Assembly: GCA_030609965.1 (NCBI GenBank)
Contig: JAUWSQ010000005.1
Span: forward strand, 1 to 64,000
Origin: Candidatus Fermentibacterota bacterium
GTDB taxonomy: Bacteria > Fermentibacterota > Fermentibacteria > Fermentibacterales > JCC-6
Reading direction: 5' to 3'
Length of the DNA: 64,000 bases
Positions 6,663 to 60,577 of the stretch are shown one piece after another. Positions within the stretch are counted from its first letter, which is position 1. Every line of letters begins with the position of its first letter. Below the pieces are notes generated by a model, which searched no databases, was not told the DNA's origin, and worked only from the letters and a program-made list of their open reading frames with translations. The position numbers and the translations under genes were made by a program.

Positions 6663-6690
6663 TTGTCAATCAGGATTTTGAGGCTATATT
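6663..6690 (+). promoter_or_regulatory. Promoter of the partner-switching operon
   Basis: TTGTCA (6663-6668), a 16-base spacer and TATATT (6685-6690) lie about 50 bases before the STAS gene start. Just after it a small inverted repeat (CGAAA, five bases, TTTCG at 6695-6709) sits where transcription would begin and could be an operator. Confidence 0.5.
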
Positions 6691-6742: not shown

Positions 6743-7084
6743 TTGAATATCAAACAGCAAATGAAGGGCGATGTACTTGTTGTTGCTCTATCCGGTAAAG
6801 TTATTGGCGGCCCCGAGCTTATGGAAGTAAAAGATGTATTCCAGAAAGCCGTTGATCAGGATAAGAAAAAAGTTCTGCTTGACCTCGGAAGAGTCAACTG
6901 GATGGATAGTTCAGGTCTGGGTGTAATTGTATCAGGCCATACTACCCTTTCAAGAGCAGGCGGATCCCTTAGAATTCTGAATGCCACGAAGAAAATTCAC
7001 GAATTGTTTATCATTACGAAGCTGATAACCATCTTCGAGACGTATACTGATGAGCAGGAAGCGTTGAATAGTTTCGGAGATTGA
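6743..7084 (+). CDS. STAS-domain anti-sigma factor antagonist (RsbV/SpoIIAA type)
   Basis: The 113-residue protein is a complete STAS domain. The phospho-acceptor loop reads MDSSGLGVIV (serines 56 and 57), as in RsbV and SpoIIAA. Such proteins bind a kinase or anti-sigma factor when unphosphorylated. The start TTG 6743 has GGGAGG six bases upstream. It overlaps the following RsbW-like kinase gene, and the PP2C-bearing giant is third in the run, so all three parts of a partner switch are adjacent. It may equally act in the RsbT/stressosome or surface-sugar style of regulation rather than on a sigma factor. Confidence 0.9.
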   Translation: MNIKQQMKGDVLVVALSGKVIGGPELMEVKDVFQKAVDQDKKKVLLDLGRVNWMDSSGLGVIVSGHTTLSRAGGSLRILNATKKIHELFIITKLITIFETYTDEQEALNSFGD

Positions 7085-7500
7085 TTGTGCACCCCATAGA
7101 AATACGTTTGCCAAGTGATACTTCCGTACTCGAGCCACTTCAGCTGATAATTGAAGCTGTTGGGAAATCGGCGAAAGTTGAGGTTGATGATCTATCCTTG
7201 CTGTCGGTTTCGGTTGTTGAACTTGCAAAGAACGCCATGGAGCACGGAAACAAGAATGACCCCGAAAAGACTGTTACTGTTAGTTTTAACATTTTTCCAA
7301 ACAGGATACGGTTCATGATTGACGATGAAGGATCCTGGGAACCTGAGAAAGCCCTCGGCTTCAACCCCGGAGAGGGGGAAGAGCTTCTGTTAACCAGGGG
7401 CAGAGGAGTTCTTATCGCCCGTAATCTTGCCAAATGGGTTGAATTCGGTCTTACTCCGGAAGGAAAAACAAGGGTTACTCTTATCTGGCCTCTGAACTGA
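7081..7500 (+). CDS. RsbW/SpoIIAB-like serine kinase (HATPase)
   Basis: The 139-residue protein has a GHKL ATPase fold with N box ELAKNAMEHGNK, G1 region IDDEGSW and G2 region RGRGVLIARN. It should phosphorylate the STAS protein next door and bind a target when that protein is phosphorylated. The start TTG 7081 overlaps the STAS stop (TTGA); GTG 7087 is an alternative. No sigma gene lies directly beside it, so the target may be either of the sigma factors at 29892 or 59189, or a non-sigma protein. That link is speculation. Confidence 0.88.
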   Translation: MIVHPIEIRLPSDTSVLEPLQLIIEAVGKSAKVEVDDLSLLSVSVVELAKNAMEHGNKNDPEKTVTVSFNIFPNRIRFMIDDEGSWEPEKALGFNPGEGEELLLTRGRGVLIARNLAKWVEFGLTPEGKTRVTLIWPLN

Positions 7501-7516
7501 AAGCGATTCCCATCCC

Positions 7517-10500
7517 GTGAACAGCTTCACTCTTTCAGTAGTATTTGAAAGCAGAGAACTGCCCGGGGGCATCCGGGATATTCTTAAAACAGACGCTGAG
7601 CTTCTCATACCTCCAGGATGGGCCGATGAAATTCAGATATCCAGATCGGATATCCCGATTCCTGACGCTTTGCTGCTTGTAATCAACGGACCGCTTTCTC
7701 CAGAACTGAGACATATTTATTTCAACTGCTTCCGGCATGCTGTCCCGATCGCAGGGATATGTATCATGGATGAGCCAGAGGATGATGACGCAGTTCAGGA
7801 TCTTCTGAACAACGCTCTCTGCTGGACATTTTCCTCGGCCAATGAAGGCAGAGAGCTGATTCGGAATGAAGTTCAGGGCTGGCTTCGGAGCCTGAACCGG
7901 GAATTCCTTCCATACCCTCAGGGTGATGAGCTGCTTCAATCCTATGGCGATATTGATGTGCTTGCAGTAGATCTGGATTCACTTGAGAGGGCCAGGGAAG
8001 TTATTACCAGGCGTGGATTCGTCTGCCTCAGCGGTTCCATGGGTGCTGGAAAAACCACCATTGCGAGAAAACTGCTTGTGGAAGCCTCTCTGGATAACCT
8101 GAACCCCATAGAAATAATAACACGGGATCTGAACTCCAGGGAAGTATTACAGCTTCTTACCGGTTCTGAGGATTGTGCTGTTTTCCTTGATCTTGATACA
8201 CTCAGGAGATTGGTGGATATCTATCCCTCCCGTCTTTGGTCATCGGTTATCTCACTTATGACAAGAGCTACAGAATCAAGACACAGACTGATACTTGCAA
8301 CATCCTCCACCGAGATCGCCAGAGTGTTCGATTCATACACCGATGCACATGTCAGGCTGCCTGAACCATCAACCTATCGGAAATGGAGACTGGATCAGGG
8401 CAGGGAGGCTTTGAAGTGGTTCCGCAGACTTTCTATTCTTGAGAAGGCTGAACTGCTTCTGCTGGCAGCCTTCGATCCTGTTGTTGCTGAAGCGGTATTT
8501 AAACGGGTACTCTTCAGGCTTCTCGACAGGCTTATTGTTCAGGAGAACAAGAGATTTCCATCCAATGAAGAACTGGAGGAACTTTACAGCAAATCACTTG
8601 CAGCTGGAGGTGCTGCTCCATTCCGAAGGATCTACGGAAGCGGCGAAGTGTATATCTCTGTCAGCGACTCCGTCCGGATGTGGGCCATAGATAAAGGTAT
8701 CCAAGAATTGCTTGAAAAGGATGCTCCGGTCATCAGGGCATTTGCAGATACACTTATCGGGAGTGAGGAACTGGGTGTAAGACGGGCCGGGTACTTCCTC
8801 GCTGGCTTCTACAAAAGCCTCTCAGATGAAGTAAGGGCAAAGTTTCTTCTTCATGTAGCATCCGAGAGATCTGGAACGGTTCTGACTGACGTTCTTAACA
8901 TGCTGCTGAGCTCCGCAGATCATTCGGATAAGTCGATAATAAGCATGTACAGGATAATGATGTCGAAGGGTGATACGGAAGTAAGAGCGGCGGTTGCGGA
9001 AACTCTCGGAAGGCAGTGGGTCATCGAGCTGCCCGCGTTTGAAAACCTGGTGCGTGCTGCTGTGACTGACCCTGAACCAAGGGTGAGAGGGCGATTTATT
9101 CAGAATCTGACCATGTGGGGAATGACTGAGAAATGCGAAAAAATATACAGAGATTTTCTGGAAGATGATTCGTACGAAGTCCGCCAGGGTCTTATGCTGT
9201 ACATAGGCAGTAAGTTTCCTTCTCTGGAACCCAGGGAGTTCGATGTATTGAATGAGGTCCTCGAAGAGGGTGACCCCGGGTTGCTGTCTACCGTTATTAT
9301 GGGGCTTCTGGATAGAAAGCTTGAGGAGTTCAACCCCGAATTCAACGATCTGCTGTGGGTGCTGATGGACAGACTTCCTCCGGGAGGAAAGGGAAGACTG
9401 GCATGGAGGATAGGAGCGAGACTCAGGTTCTTCAGCAGTGAAGTCAGGAAATCCATCAGGACCGATCTTACAGAGGAGGACATCCTTCAGGTTTCGCGCT
9501 GTATGCTGATGAACTACTCCTCCCTGGATAATGCAGAAAAGGGGAACCTCTGGGAGCTGATCCACGAACGAATCGCTTTCAGCAGGGCATTCGCCGGCAT
9601 GGCGCTGGGATACTACAGTATCATGGACAATGAAATTAGAAGAAATTTTCTAACTGAAGTACTGTCAGCGGATCACTACGAAGGAAGGGAAGCTCTCAGC
9701 CAGCTTGTCTGCCTTGGCAGGACAGATCTGAGGGAAGCATCTCTTGAGCTGATTGCAGATATTATCAAGACAGGGGAATTCAAGGAGAGAGCTGCTCTTC
9801 CATTCTTCGTACTCTGGAACGGGAGTGACTTCGGTGATTCGGTTTCTGATTTTATCAGTGAATTCACTCAGGATTCCTCTTCATACGTTCGAAAATCACT
9901 TGTGAACGCGATCAGGGGCCTTGGAAAACGAACCGACGCAACCCTGGATGTACTCCGGCAACTGGCATATGATGAGAAAAGGGCTGTGAGAGCTGCAGCC
10001 GCGGTGACACTTGGAGAGTTTGAAAGTGATAAACCGCAGGACCTTGATCCTGTTCTGAAGAAATTGCTTGCAGATGAAGATCCATATGTGCGCCTTGGCG
10101 CTCTTTCGGGTCTGCTGAATAATGTCGCCATTTCCGATGTTAAACTTCTTCCAGTGGTCATGAGCGCTTTTGATGATTCTGCATCGGATGTGCGGCTGGA
10201 GATCGTTTCCGGCCTTAGAATCCATCCAGAGCTCTATTCAATACCAGATATAGATGTTAAACTGGCGGATATGTTCACTGATCCCGATAGAAATGTACGA
10301 ATGGAAGTGATAAGACTTGTCACCGAAACTCCGGAGCTGCTCGCTTCGGATATTATCAGGATCAGGATGCCTGATATTCTTCTTAACAGGTTCTCAGCCG
10401 GACATGCCATATCGGAAGAACTTAACATGGCGAGGAAGATACAGCTTGACCTGCTCCCCGACAGTCCTCCCAGTCTTGAGAGTTACGATATCGAGATTTT

Positions 10501-11131
10501 CTACAGACCTGCCAGTGAAGTAGGGGGGGATTATTATGATTTCTTCCATCTTCCAGATCGTAATCTTGGACTGGCAGTGGCCGATGTAGCCGGAAAAGGG
10601 ATCCCGGCGGCACTTACGATGGCCGGACTTAAGGGCAATCTGGTTGCTTACGTACAGAGTATTTATTCCATCAGCAAGATAATTCAGAAGGTTAACGAAT
10701 CCTCCGTTCTCGGCGAGGGGGATCCCATAATGACCGGTCTGTTCTACGGTGTGCTGGATCTTGACTCAGGTAAGCTTACTTATGTTAACGCAGGGCATAA
10801 TCCTCCACTTCTTGTGAAGAGGGAGGGGGAATCCTGCTGGCTTGAGAAGGGCGGGCTCATAATGGGTCTGTCGGCCGAGGCGAAGTATGAGCACGGAACC
10901 GTGGAGCTTGAATCGGGCGATGTGCTTGTCCTCTATACAGATGGGTTAACGGAGGCAATGGATTCATCAGACTTCGAATTCGGTACAGAGAGACTGTGCA
11001 ATGTTGTTCTGGAAAACCGTGACCTCTCAGCGCATCAGATCTCAGGCGGGATACTCGATGCTGTTAACTCCTACTCAAAGGGTTCTCCACAGGGGGATGA
11101 TCAGACCCTTGTTGTTTTGAAATACAGGTGA
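7517..11131 (+). CDS. Giant P-loop NTPase / HEAT repeat / PP2C (SpoIIE-type) phosphatase
   Basis: The 1204-residue protein has four parts. Residues 1-140 are an unrecognised alpha/beta region. Residues about 165-400 form a P-loop NTPase with Walker A GSMGAGKT (173-180) and an acidic Walker B-like strand VFLDLD, resembling STAND-type signalling ATPases. Residues about 400-960 are a long array of HEAT-like helical repeats (patterns such as DPEPRVRGRFIQNL, DEDPYVRLGALSGL and DPDRNVRMEVIRLV). Residues about 970-1204 are an RsbU/SpoIIE PP2C phosphatase with metal-binding segments GGDYYDF, VADVAGKG, YTDGLTEA and GDDQT, all intact. It is expected to dephosphorylate the STAS protein encoded two genes upstream, with the NTPase and HEAT parts as sensor. 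The start is GTG 7517, with no evident SD site. Confidence 0.85.
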   Translation: MNSFTLSVVFESRELPGGIRDILKTDAELLIPPGWADEIQISRSDIPIPDALLLVINGPLSPELRHIYFNCFRHAVPIAGICIMDEPEDDDAVQDLLNNALCWTFSSANEGRELIRNEVQGWLRSLNREFLPYPQGDELLQSYGDIDVLAVDLDSLERAREVITRRGFVCLSGSMGAGKTTIARKLLVEASLDNLNPIEIITRDLNSREVLQLLTGSEDCAVFLDLDTLRRLVDIYPSRLWSSVISLMTRATESRHRLILATSSTEIARVFDSYTDAHVRLPEPSTYRKWRLDQGREALKWFRRLSILEKAELLLLAAFDPVVAEAVFKRVLFRLLDRLIVQENKRFPSNEELEELYSKSLAAGGAAPFRRIYGSGEVYISVSDSVRMWAIDKGIQELLEKDAPVIRAFADTLIGSEELGVRRAGYFLAGFYKSLSDEVRAKFLLHVASERSGTVLTDVLNMLLSSADHSDKSIISMYRIMMSKGDTEVRAAVAETLGRQWVIELPAFENLVRAAVTDPEPRVRGRFIQNLTMWGMTEKCEKIYRDFLEDDSYEVRQGLMLYIGSKFPSLEPREFDVLNEVLEEGDPGLLSTVIMGLLDRKLEEFNPEFNDLLWVLMDRLPPGGKGRLAWRIGARLRFFSSEVRKSIRTDLTEEDILQVSRCMLMNYSSLDNAEKGNLWELIHERIAFSRAFAGMALGYYSIMDNEIRRNFLTEVLSADHYEGREALSQLVCLGRTDLREASLELIADIIKTGEFKERAALPFFVLWNGSDFGDSVSDFISEFTQDSSSYVRKSLVNAIRGLGKRTDATLDVLRQLAYDEKRAVRAAAAVTLGEFESDKPQDLDPVLKKLLADEDPYVRLGALSGLLNNVAISDVKLLPVVMSAFDDSASDVRLEIVSGLRIHPELYSIPDIDVKLADMFTDPDRNVRMEVIRLVTETPELLASDIIRIRMPDILLNRFSAGHAISEELNMARKIQLDLLPDSPPSLESYDIEIFYRPASEVGGDYYDFFHLPDRNLGLAVADVAGKGIPAALTMAGLKGNLVAYVQSIYSISKIIQKVNESSVLGEGDPIMTGLFYGVLDLDSGKLTYVNAGHNPPLLVKREGESCWLEKGGLIMGLSAEAKYEHGTVELESGDVLVLYTDGLTEAMDSSDFEFGTERLCNVVLENRDLSAHQISGGILDAVNSYSKGSPQGDDQTLVVLKYR

Positions 11132-29891: not shown

Positions 29892-30734
29892 TTGGCGACA
29901 AAGCGTACAGAAGGCAGATCACTGGAACTGTACCTAAGAGAAATCGGTAGTAAGGAGACTCTTTCATCTGCGGAGGAGGCTTCACTCGCAAAACGTATCC
30001 GTGCTGGAGAACAGGAAGCTCTGAATGAACTTACAGAAGCAAATCTTAGATTCGTTGTAAGTATTGCGAAACAGTACGCGAATCAGGGTGTTGCGCTGGA
30101 AGACCTTATTAACGAAGGGAATGTAGGACTTATAAGAGCTGCAAAAGGATTCGATGAAAGCAAGGGATGCCGCTTCATTACGTATGCCGTATGGTGGATA
30201 AGGCAGGCTATCCTTCAAGCCCTTGCGGAGCAGTCAAGAATTGTGCGTCTTCCCTTGAATCGTGTTGGGGAGCTTTATAAAATGGGTCGTGCCGCAAGAG
30301 AGCTTGGTCATTCTCTGGGCCGAAATCCATCGACAAATGAAATTGCCGATGAACTGGATGTATCCAGGGGTGATGTTGAAGGAATGATGTCGATCCACAG
30401 TACACACCTTTCACTTGACAGCCCTGTTTACGAAGGCAGTGATAAGACTTTCCAGGAGATGATCTCCGATGATGATGACGTACCACCGGATGAAGCAGTA
30501 GTTCAGACGGCAATGAAGAGAAGTGTCGCGGGAATGCTGGATATTCTTGACCAGCGCGAAAGAACTATAATCCAGCTCTTCTTCGGAATAAACACAGATA
30601 GAAGGCATACCCTCGCGGAAATTGGAAGAACAATGGGTATAAGCCGCGAACGGGTACGTCAGTTGAAGAACAGAGCTATTTCCAAACTCAACGACAAAAC
30701 CGACAGCAAGAATCTTCTGCTTTACCTGAAATAA
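29892..30734 (+). CDS. rpoD: RNA polymerase sigma-70 factor, primary type without region 1.1
   Basis: The 280-residue factor begins directly with region 1.2 (LELYLREIGSKETLSSAEEASLAKRI), followed by region 2 (NLRFVVSIAKQYANQGVALEDLINEGN, ITYAVWWIRQAI), region 3 (RIVRLPLNRVGELYK) and region 4 (ERTIIQLFFGI ... ISRERVRQLKNRAISKL). The short form and sequence style match primary sigma factors of Bacteroidetes and Chlorobi, so this may be the housekeeping factor even though another sigma gene follows dnaG. The start TTG 29892 has AAAGG eight bases upstream. A palindrome and a TATAAT lie upstream. Confidence 0.88.
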   Translation: MATKRTEGRSLELYLREIGSKETLSSAEEASLAKRIRAGEQEALNELTEANLRFVVSIAKQYANQGVALEDLINEGNVGLIRAAKGFDESKGCRFITYAVWWIRQAILQALAEQSRIVRLPLNRVGELYKMGRAARELGHSLGRNPSTNEIADELDVSRGDVEGMMSIHSTHLSLDSPVYEGSDKTFQEMISDDDDVPPDEAVVQTAMKRSVAGMLDILDQRERTIIQLFFGINTDRRHTLAEIGRTMGISRERVRQLKNRAISKLNDKTDSKNLLLYLK

Positions 30735-57440: not shown

Positions 57441-59179
57441 GCGGAAAAAGCGGTTATTTCTCAAACGAATCCGTCGAACGTGTCAGGACATCGAGTGATA
57501 TAGTCACAGTAATCGGCAGGTATGTCAGCCTGAAGAGATCAGGGAGAAGCATAAAGGGTTTGTGTCCCTTCCACCGGGAGAAGACACCATCATTCTTCGT
57601 CTCCCCGGAAAGGCAGATGTACCACTGTTTCGGGTGCGGGGCAGGAGGAGACATATTCTCATTTCTTATGAACTATCTCAGCTTCTCATTCACAGAAGCA
57701 GTGGAGGAACTGGCAACCGAAGCCGGAATCAAACTGGAAAGAACCGGAAGAGACACAACCAGAACGGATATATTCAGGGAGATACTTGCCGAGGCACAGA
57801 AATATTACAGGAAGCAGTTTTCGGGGAAAACTGGAACCCCTGCGCGGGAGTATCTTGAGGGACGAGAACTATCTGAAGTGATCATCGAAAAGCTCGGTAT
57901 CGGCTGGGCTCCGGATAAAGGCGGGCTTTCCACCCACCTCCGCGAGAGGGGATACTCCGAAAGTCAGCTTATCGAATCGGGCCTGGCTCTGCAATCCACC
58001 AGGGGTAGCGGTATATACGATAAATTCAGGGGCAGAATACTGTTTCCGATTTCCGACAGACGGGGCAGAATAATCAGTTTCGGCGGGAGATTGATCAAAG
58101 AATCCTCATCCGGAGCTCCGAAGTACATGAACGGCCCCGATTCACCCATTTATAGAAAGGGTGATTACCTTTACGGCTACAGAGATGCCGCACGAGCATC
58201 ACGGGACCTGGATATGATCATTCTCGTCGAAGGTTATTTCGATCATGCCCGGTTTGTGGACGCTGGATTTGAGTGCGTCGTCGCAACCTGTGGAACAGCT
58301 CTGACATCACCCCAGGCCCGTCAGATGGGAGCTCTTGCGTCTGTTTACATCTGCTACGATGGTGACAGATCCGGACAGAGGGCATCTGTAAGAGCAGCTG
58401 AAATCATTCTTGAGCAGGGATATCTCCCCGGGATAATCGCTATTCCCGGAGGACAGGACCCGGATGATTACATACTCGAGATGGGCAGGGAATCGATCCT
58501 TGAATTGATTGGAAGAGCTGATGACCCCATCAGATACGCCCTTGGGCTTCTTGGCGGCTGGTCCTCGGTGAAGGGGGCGGAGAAAAAGGTCAAGGTTGTG
58601 AAAAGACTTGTCGAAATCGCTTCGAGTGCCACCGAACCTGTTATAAGGGAGACGATGCTTAAAGTTATGTCGGAGGAAACCGGTTACTCAATGAAGACAC
58701 TTGAGCTTGAGATCAGTGAAGAGGACGGTAAGATCAGAAAACCTGCCTATAGAAAACTGAAAGAGACAGAGCTTAACAAGTGGGACAGCAGAATACTGGG
58801 TTATATCCTTCTTTCCCCTGAGGGATTATCGAACCCGCTGGTTGATTTCATTATGGAAGATGATTTTCAAAGTAAATCGGGATCCAGAATATTCAGTGAA
58901 ATAAAAAGACAGGCAGATTCCGGAATGGTGCTCTTTCAGCTTTCGCGTCTTGAGGATAATGACAGTTCCATATGCGCTGGATTCTTAACGGTATATCCGG
59001 AACAGACTGAACCCCAGGACATTGAAAGACTGAGAAAAGCAGTAAAGAAGAACAGACTTAAGGAGGAGCGTAAACAGCTGAAATCGCAACTGGATTCGGC
59101 TGAAAGTGATGATGATATCCAGGAGCTGCGGCGCAGGATTGCAGAGATAAAAGACATAGAAAAAAAATACTACAAGTAA
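57437..59179 (+). CDS. dnaG: DNA primase
   Basis: The 580-residue primase has an N-terminal CHC2 zinc finger (CPFHREKTPSFFVSPERQ, then HCFGCGAGG), the central catalytic domain with SFGGRLI, and the TOPRIM motif VEGYFDHARF with the acidic YDGDRSG. The C-terminal helicase-binding part is helical and less conserved. Its TAA stop is followed in the same frame by the sigma gene, as discussed there. Confidence 0.95.
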   Translation: MSGKSGYFSNESVERVRTSSDIVTVIGRYVSLKRSGRSIKGLCPFHREKTPSFFVSPERQMYHCFGCGAGGDIFSFLMNYLSFSFTEAVEELATEAGIKLERTGRDTTRTDIFREILAEAQKYYRKQFSGKTGTPAREYLEGRELSEVIIEKLGIGWAPDKGGLSTHLRERGYSESQLIESGLALQSTRGSGIYDKFRGRILFPISDRRGRIISFGGRLIKESSSGAPKYMNGPDSPIYRKGDYLYGYRDAARASRDLDMIILVEGYFDHARFVDAGFECVVATCGTALTSPQARQMGALASVYICYDGDRSGQRASVRAAEIILEQGYLPGIIAIPGGQDPDDYILEMGRESILELIGRADDPIRYALGLLGGWSSVKGAEKKVKVVKRLVEIASSATEPVIRETMLKVMSEETGYSMKTLELEISEEDGKIRKPAYRKLKETELNKWDSRILGYILLSPEGLSNPLVDFIMEDDFQSKSGSRIFSEIKRQADSGMVLFQLSRLEDNDSSICAGFLTVYPEQTEPQDIERLRKAVKKNRLKEERKQLKSQLDSAESDDDIQELRRRIAEIKDIEKKYYK

Positions 59180-59188
59180 GGAGTTCCT

Positions 59189-60577
59189 ATTCCCGGCTTC
59201 CGCAGAAATCGTGATTGCTCGTCAAGTACCGTATTCTTCCGGGAGCTTGACGTTGTATCTCCAATGTCAGCGGAGGAGGAAAAGGATCTGATCACAGAGC
59301 AGGAAAAAGTAAGATGCAATATGCTTGAATCCATACTTTCCATAAAGCTTGGTAGAGATCAGTTCTTCGAGCCCCTGCGGATGCTGCTGAATGGAGATAT
59401 TTCCGCAAAGAGAATGATCGACGAGTCCTTCTGGGCTATTGTTAACGGACGTCTGCCTGATTCGGGAAAAAACAAACTGAGGAAAATCATCGGTAACATG
59501 AAAAGCCGTTACCTGAATCGCGATTCAGTACGTGATCTTCATCTTCTGTGGCATACCGTGGAGAACATCGGCAGCGAACTGTTTGAAGGGATCGAGATCT
59601 GCAGAGAACTGCTTACCCGGCGTATGAGCCTGATGGACCTTCTGGCAGATGATACGATTCCCGTCACTGTGAAGGCTCTTAATCATGAATCACTCCTGGA
59701 ACCTGCCATAGAGAACAGCTGTCGGTCATGGGAACTCCATCCTCTCTTTTCATCCATCCAGAATGAACTGGATCTTATGGAGGTGGAAAGAGGTTCTTGT
59801 ATTCACGAATATTCTGCTGCTGCTAATCGTTTTCGGGAAGCATTTCTGAAAAACGCTGATATTCTCGAACGTTTCGTTGAGGCGAATCTCAAACTTGTGG
59901 TTTCCATGGTACGGAAGTACTATCCATGCAGTATAATGGAAGAGATGGATCTCGTTCAGGAAGGATGCCAGGGCCTTATGGAGGCTGTCAGGCGTTTCGA
60001 TTACAGCCGGTCCTGCAAACTGTCCACCTTCGCTGTGTGGTGGATAAGACAGTACATCATAAAAGCCATTCTTCACCACTCAAGGCTGGTCAGACTCCCG
60101 GTATCTCTGCAGAAAGAAGATTCTTCAATAAACAGGGCAATTGACGATTTTACATTGGAGACCGGTCGTAAGCCAACCCTGGATGAACTTTCAGAATACA
60201 CCGGAAGAAACCGGAACGAAATAGAACAGATATACATTTCTACCGCACCCTTGCTGTCACTGGATCATACCGATGGAGAGCATGATGCAACGATCGCCGA
60301 TTTTCTGGAGAGCCGTCTTCAGCAGCCTGATGAAGAGGCTGTACATACCGATACCAGGGATAGGATCAATGCGGCGCTTGCTTCACTCTCTGACAGGGAG
60401 AAGACTATAATTACACTGCGCTTCGGGCTTCTGGACGATGAGCCATGTACTCTGCAGGAACTCGGCAGGATATTCGGTATAAGCAGGGAAAGGGTCAGGC
60501 AGCTGGAATCCAGAGCTCTGAGTAAGCTCAAGGGGCACGGGCGGCTTTCGACACTTTCGGAAAACGGATCGCTGTGA
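59189..60577 (+). CDS. Sigma-70 factor with large region 1.2-2 insert; apparent ATT start
   Basis: Regions 2 to 4 are clear: NLKLVVSMVRKYY, LSTFAVWWIRQYIIKAI, RLVRLPVSLQKE, EKTIITLRFGLLDDEPCTLQEL and ISRERVRQLESRALSKL. About 170 residues between regions 1.2 and 2 form a helical insert like the non-conserved region of proteobacterial RpoD. Conserved region 1.2 (TVFFRELDVVSPMSAEEEKDL) extends upstream of the first ATG (59264). No ATG, GTG or TTG lies between that ATG and the dnaG stop, but ATT 59189 has AAGGAG five bases upstream. I therefore place the start there (462 residues). Its position after dnaG matches the usual dnaG-rpoD order. Readthrough of the dnaG TAA, in the same frame, is another way to include region 1.2. 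Confidence 0.75.
   Translation: MPGFRRNRDCSSSTVFFRELDVVSPMSAEEEKDLITEQEKVRCNMLESILSIKLGRDQFFEPLRMLLNGDISAKRMIDESFWAIVNGRLPDSGKNKLRKIIGNMKSRYLNRDSVRDLHLLWHTVENIGSELFEGIEICRELLTRRMSLMDLLADDTIPVTVKALNHESLLEPAIENSCRSWELHPLFSSIQNELDLMEVERGSCIHEYSAAANRFREAFLKNADILERFVEANLKLVVSMVRKYYPCSIMEEMDLVQEGCQGLMEAVRRFDYSRSCKLSTFAVWWIRQYIIKAILHHSRLVRLPVSLQKEDSSINRAIDDFTLETGRKPTLDELSEYTGRNRNEIEQIYISTAPLLSLDHTDGEHDATIADFLESRLQQPDEEAVHTDTRDRINAALASLSDREKTIITLRFGLLDDEPCTLQELGRIFGISRERVRQLESRALSKLKGHGRLSTLSENGSL

Follow-up and report, generated by a model that had tools for sequence, protein, structure and literature searches.

A partner-switch locus conserved across Fermentibacterota whose phosphatase carries a STAND-type NTPase and HEAT repeats

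The window analysed here, a whole stretch of 64,000 nucleotides from a Candidatus Fermentibacterota assembly, carries at positions 6743-11131 a three-gene operon encoding a STAS protein, an RsbW-like kinase and a protein of 1204 amino acids (hereafter the giant), with every open reading frame at the coordinates listed in Table 1. The kinase start shares 4 bases with the end of the STAS gene, the giant starts 16 bases past the kinase end, and the downstream neighbour, a SAM hydroxide adenosyltransferase (SAM hydrolase) gene, begins at 11128 and overlaps the stop of the giant. Upstream lies a putative sigma70-like promoter, of which the pattern TTTTGTCAAT...TATATT is retained 5' of the STAS gene in many copies within the genus, as read from the sequence. 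Candidatus Aegiribacteria / Fermentibacteria MAGs are its nearest named relatives (86-88% identity). A first-pass annotation had proposed a three-gene partner-switch operon at this place, which the ORF coordinates, the Pfam domains and the phylum-wide synteny described below confirm.

Table 1. Features of the locus and of the dnaG-linked sigma gene (positions in the window; residue numbers are those of the giant)
Feature	Position	Strand	Basis
Putative operon promoter, sigma70-like, TTGTCA-16-TATATT	6663..6690	+	Consensus match alone
STAS anti-anti-sigma-like protein (RsbV/SpoIIAA type), 113 aa	6743..7084	+	TTG start; Pfam and TIGR00377
RsbW/SpoIIAB-like HATPase_c_2 serine kinase / anti-sigma-like protein, 139 aa	7081..7500	+	TTG start; Pfam
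Giant PP2C phosphatase, 1204 aa: alpha/beta N-domain, nSTAND3, helical/HEAT scaffold, linker helix, SpoIIE-type PP2C	7517..11131	+	GTG start
Alpha/beta N-domain, residues 1-140, alternating strands and helices in low-confidence secondary structure	7517..7936	+	No Pfam or PDB relative
nSTAND3 P-loop NTPase, residues 153-280	7973..8356	+	Pfam; Walker motifs invariant
Helices and beta-hairpin with conserved PFRR motif, residues 300-400	8414..8716	+	Low-confidence model; conservation
HEAT-like repeats, residues about 480-590	8954..9286	+	HEAT_2 1.3e-8 for residues 401-770
HEAT repeats, residues about 779-945	9851..10351	+	Pfam, profile search, AF2 model
Linker helix (EELxxARxIQxxLLP), residues 953-979, low-confidence hinge at 957-963	10373..10453	+	AF2, single helix
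SpoIIE/RsbU-type PP2C, residues 986-1204, metal site intact (D1005, D1023, D1142, D1195)	10472..11128	+	Pfam, alignment, Foldseek
dnaG-linked long sigma70-family protein, proposed switch output	59189..60577	+	Sigma r2/r3/r4; adjacent dnaG; co-lost in G014

The 113-aa protein matched the STAS family in Pfam (5.7e-13) and also TIGR00377 above its cut-off. Its phosphosite motif MDSSGLG offers S56 and S57 as candidate serines, and D55-S56-S57-G58-L59-G60 is invariant in an alignment of 33 copies. The kinase matched HATPase_c_2 (Pfam, 1e-17) and possesses N, G1 and G2 boxes, with E47, N51, H55-G56-N57, D82xG84 and R106-G-R-G109 likewise invariant across 33 copies. Mean identity reaches 74% for the STAS protein, the highest of the three proteins, and 64% for the kinase. 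Partner-switch chemistry of the predicted STAS/kinase/PP2C module is well supported. We found one stand-alone STAS protein, one stand-alone HATPase_c_2 kinase of the RsbW type and three SpoIIE proteins, the giant included, in the genome of the window; because the source assembly (2.6 Mb, 81 contigs) is 80.7% complete, the counts of one for STAS and kinase are lower bounds. The two further SpoIIE phosphatases, encoded elsewhere, bear GAF domains and hydrophobic N-terminal segments, and probably feed the same STAS protein.

Profile searches of the N-terminal third of the giant were run as the first-pass annotation had proposed. For the NTPase region Pfam returned nSTAND3, at residues 153-279 (1.5e-10, 41.4 bits, and 41-44 bits overall, against a curated cut-off of 27.2); for residues 1-140 both Pfam and PDB returned noise only. 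All of 20 diverse family members matched the nSTAND3 profile, so that the P-loop assignment does not hang on a single sequence, and Walker A (G173/G178/K179/T180) and Walker B (D225/D227) do not vary among 29 copies with identities as low as about 40%. The earlier reading of a STAND-like NTPase, put at risk by a profile search for the P-loop, is therefore borne out. A STAND sensor-1 Arg is not evident, the strand 257-261 terminating in a Ser that is invariant. Built from six close homologues, the AF2 model of residues 1-420 reached a pLDDT of 38 and serves as a hint of secondary structure only; it places helices and a hairpin at 307-382, and residues 300-400 may perhaps correspond to the winged helix of a STAND core. 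For residues 1-140 we considered a CheY-like receiver, a reading drawn from the resemblance of PDALLLVI to receiver strand 3, and found no support for it beyond chance: the hhalign probability was 0.7%, with column-shuffled controls reaching 3.9%, and position 55, where the strand-3 register would put the phospho-accepting Asp, is V/L/I/F/A in 29 copies.

Behind the NTPase, HEAT_2 was detected in four stretches of the giant (Pfam, 1.6e-24). The first-pass annotation had assigned about 550 residues to HEAT repeats; the repeats are real and significant at about 480-590 and 779-945, and the figure is generous, as about 590-770 goes unrecognised by Pfam. That stretch (9284-9826), for which no Pfam family match was obtained, is conserved, contains invariant glycines (RLPxGGKG) and splits the recognisable repeats; it is probably helical. 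In the AF2 model covering residues 760-1204 (mean pLDDT 85), helices are paired up to about 950 and are followed by the linker helix, which bridges the last HEAT helices and the PP2C domain and whose motif is common to other bacterial PP2Cs with different sensors. The SpoIIE domain was delimited by Pfam at residues 1013-1203 (3.1e-43), and its four acidic residues are invariant in 29 copies; by alignment they correspond to the metal ligands of SpoIIE. The phosphatase is thus complete, as had been noted from the sequence at the outset, with all metal Asp present. The linker and PP2C together find their best matches in P. aeruginosa RssB and the RsbU domain of Rv1364c, both by fold (Foldseek against PDB) and by sequence profile.

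To assess how widely the module occurs, we carried out the genome survey for the three-gene set that the first-pass annotation had called for, and found it in 39 of the 42 genomes of Fermentibacterota, counting three copies cut by contig ends. The N-terminal third of the giant was matched in 36/42 genomes, and G002, G006 and G040 were added after inspection of contig ends: their apparent absence was rejected since the locus is present there, although only the C-terminal end of the giant can be read. For G040 this comprises only the last 45 residues of the giant (E-value 3e-4), adjoining the conserved SAM hydrolase and GH57 genes. Two assemblies (G018 and G020) were too incomplete for a presence/absence call. 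The order Trx-GT2-STAS-kinase-giant-SAM hydrolase-GH57 is mostly retained between genera and between families wherever a contig covers it, one or another flanking gene being absent from some genomes, and the STAS-kinase-giant order is kept in every spanning contig, with intergenic distances from about -5 to +90 bases. For the phylum as a whole, the module is a syntenic core locus. Complete giants (n=29) measure 1203-1205 aa, align nearly without gaps and share about 40-88% identity with the window protein; their NTPase region is better conserved than the HEAT region. Values of dN/dS were 0.04-0.16 for each segment, the N-domain included, which together with conservation over all segments indicates that every part is under selection and not the phosphatase alone. 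In a sample of about 343 genomes outside the phylum, residues 1-420 had no relative beyond P-loop patches (best E-value 2.9e-6 over 44 residues), and extra-phylum relatives of the full giant shared the linker and PP2C only, their recognised sensors being GAF, PAS, HAMP or propeller domains. No relatives of residues 1-420 were found in the viral contigs and plasmids searched.

These features set the locus beside several known systems. Like the general stress switch RsbU-RsbV-RsbW of Bacillus (PMC12143880), it combines a STAS protein with a phosphosite, a HATPase_c_2 kinase and a PP2C behind an alpha-helical linker; unlike there, the sensor of the giant consists of the N-domain, nSTAND3 and HEAT repeats and not of the RsbU N-terminal domain, PAS, GAF or a receiver. 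The sensors named for phosphatases of partner switches are PAS, GAF, HAMP, receiver or RsbT-binding domains (PMC12143880). P. aeruginosa RssB and M. tuberculosis Rv1364c, the top matches of the linker and PP2C, carry a receiver and a PAS domain with fused RsbW/RsbV parts respectively, whereas NTPase and HEAT repeats occur in neither. The Rsb switch of Chlamydia (PMC11619594) resembles this one as a phylum-wide core switch whose kinase holds a sigma70-family factor other than SigB, as we propose here, but chlamydial RsbU has a periplasmic sensor domain and the giant is without a recognised membrane or periplasmic part. With STAND NTPases (nSTAND3; NLR-like receptors) the giant shares a P-loop NTPase over the Pfam cut-off followed by superstructure-forming repeats; it differs in that the effector is a signalling phosphatase (PP2C) C-terminal to the repeats, and in being a conserved core gene instead of a patchy defence gene. 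The statement that no system with this order had been described is consistent with the open-access literature searched on PP2C architectures, partner switching and STAND conflict systems. The core switch is classical, and the STAND/HEAT input to the phosphatase is not.

One genome of the same genus, G014, provides a natural deletion. In this reduced genome (1.9 Mb, 98% complete), STAS, kinase and giant are exactly absent between intact GT2 and SAM hydrolase genes; since a tree of the flanking genes places G014 as sister of the module-bearing G007 with a support of 0.99, the absence represents a loss. No SpoIIE-family proteins were found in the G014 genome, nor any HATPase_c_2 protein over cut-off. 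At its dnaG locus (dnaJ-mutS2-dnaG-btuF-ABC-permease), the sigma gene is cleanly gone between dnaG and btuF, while a long sigma sits downstream of dnaG in all other well-sampled genomes; genera g3 and g4 have a shorter, much diverged dnaG-linked sigma together with the module. Altogether 17 of the 21 window genes in the two blocks are kept in G014, and the four lost are STAS, kinase, giant and the dnaG-linked sigma. The two loci lie some 48 kb apart in the window. A sigma-factor profile search showed that the primary sigma is retained. The clean joint loss of three genes strengthens the view that the PP2C would act on the neighbouring STAS protein. As the joint loss amounts to one evolutionary event in a reduced genome, the link to the sigma is suggestive and no proof.

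The usual target of RsbW is a SigB/SigF-like sigma. In a further difference from the Bacillus system, none of this type was found in the genome of the window, which encodes one primary-type, one dnaG-linked and five ECF-type sigmas. This is no bar to a sigma output given the precedent of Chlamydia, in which RsbW binds a sigma70-family housekeeping factor (PMC11619594). From the one co-loss, the dnaG-linked sigma is the likely output.

We infer a cytoplasmic partner switch in which the activating phosphatase is gated by the STAND-type NTPase and the HEAT scaffold, with the dnaG-linked sigma as its most likely target, and give this reading as a whole about an even chance of being right. At rest, the kinase would phosphorylate STAS on its conserved serine and remain bound to the target. 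Binding of a partner by the HEAT/N-terminal region of the giant would change the nucleotide state of nSTAND3, a mode of gating suggested by the fold family, and the giant would then self-associate. For RsbU, partner binding was shown to stiffen the linkers so that they form a coiled coil and the phosphatase dimerises; similar linkers have been suggested to relay signals from diverse sensors (PMC12143880). By analogy, self-association of the giant may pair two linker helices and switch on the PP2C, which would dephosphorylate the STAS protein of the operon; STAS would in turn capture the kinase and free the target. Several points speak against this explanation: the sigma link comes from one co-loss in a reduced genome, g3 and g4 retain the module alongside a shortened and much diverged dnaG-linked sigma, the usual SigB/SigF-like target was not found in the genome of the window, the position of the effector behind the repeats is unusual, and no sensor-1 Arg is evident. 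More tentatively, as a possibility we would rate below the switch itself, the STAND ATPase and HEAT scaffold might form a cytoplasmic NLR-like receptor that clusters PP2C domains to release the dnaG-linked sigma, and so provide the core input to a stress or growth-state response shared by the phylum, as the stressosome/RsbT does for RsbU in Bacillus.

The same switch could operate with a structural or slowly switching P-loop domain, a protein partner sensed by the HEAT repeats packing the linker helices directly as RsbT does for RsbU; the linker/PP2C part alone suffices for such a mechanism and the HEAT region is long, conserved and almost indel-free. Yet invariant Walker A and B residues in 29 proteins, together with the higher conservation of the NTPase than of the HEAT region, suggest that nucleotide binding is used, and we hold a nucleotide-independent mechanism to be unlikely. 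A different output of the same switch seems to us unlikely too. Other partner switches with non-sigma outputs exist, and the kinase could hold a non-sigma protein, the primary sigma (29892-30734) or an ECF sigma, both types being encoded in the genome; the dnaG-linked sigma is backed by a single co-loss, and chlamydial RsbW binds the housekeeping sigma (PMC11619594). Against such an output, G014 keeps its primary sigma and has lost the dnaG-linked one by clean deletion along with the whole switch.

Two readings that leave partner switching aside fare much worse. Defence genes are usually patchy and variable, whereas this is a phylum-wide syntenic core locus with a giant of constant length under dN/dS as low as 0.04-0.16, not found on the searched plasmids or viral contigs and devoid of nuclease or toxin domains; constant length and core status thus argue against a conflict or anti-phage system built of a STAND-type receptor and a phosphatase effector, which we consider highly improbable even though such systems commonly employ repeat-bearing STAND NTPases (PMC7159879) and PADLOC, which called no defence system at the locus, gave a weak match to a HEAT-ARM model (5e-7). 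We give equally little credence to a PP2C that targets another phosphoprotein, with STAS and kinase merely co-located in the operon. The sequence does not show the substrate of this PP2C, but the operon order is kept across families, the three genes were lost jointly in G014, and the domain is of the SpoIIE/RsbU type in a genome where only one stand-alone STAS was found.

Bacterial partner switches vary chiefly in the input to the phosphatase, and an input made of a STAND NTPase and HEAT repeats would tie the control of sigma factors in an uncultured phylum to NLR-like switching. Should the dnaG-linked sigma prove to be the output, sequence alone would suffice to test a regulatory circuit of the whole phylum, via recombinant proteins in E. 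coli, with G014 as a natural deletion usable for comparison.

Some further observations concern the sigma genes and other arrangements of the same domains. The primary-type sigma (280 aa, 29892-30734) is not beside dnaG, and the long divergent one (59264-60577 from its first ATG) occupies the usual place of rpoD after dnaG; the sigma in that place is the dispensable one, lost in G014. Its gene seems to start with ATT (window 59178-59264): TTCCT-ATT comes directly after a Shine-Dalgarno sequence AAGGAG, no in-frame ATG, GTG or TTG occurs in the conserved region that precedes the first ATG at 59264, and about ten genomes of the genus share the ATT. AUU starts are rare, as in infC. G007 has more SpoIIE and HATPase_c_2 proteins than the genome of the window, and encodes a 440-aa fusion of HTH_3, SpoIIE PP2C and HATPase_c_2 (L182:5457-6776), apparently a regulator that unites phosphatase and anti-sigma-kinase parts in one protein. 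SpoIIE and HATPase_c_2 matches also lie close together at a contig end in G003 (L183), and contigs of Calditrichota/KSB1 (L041, L042, L043) carry three or four consecutive SpoIIE PP2C genes.
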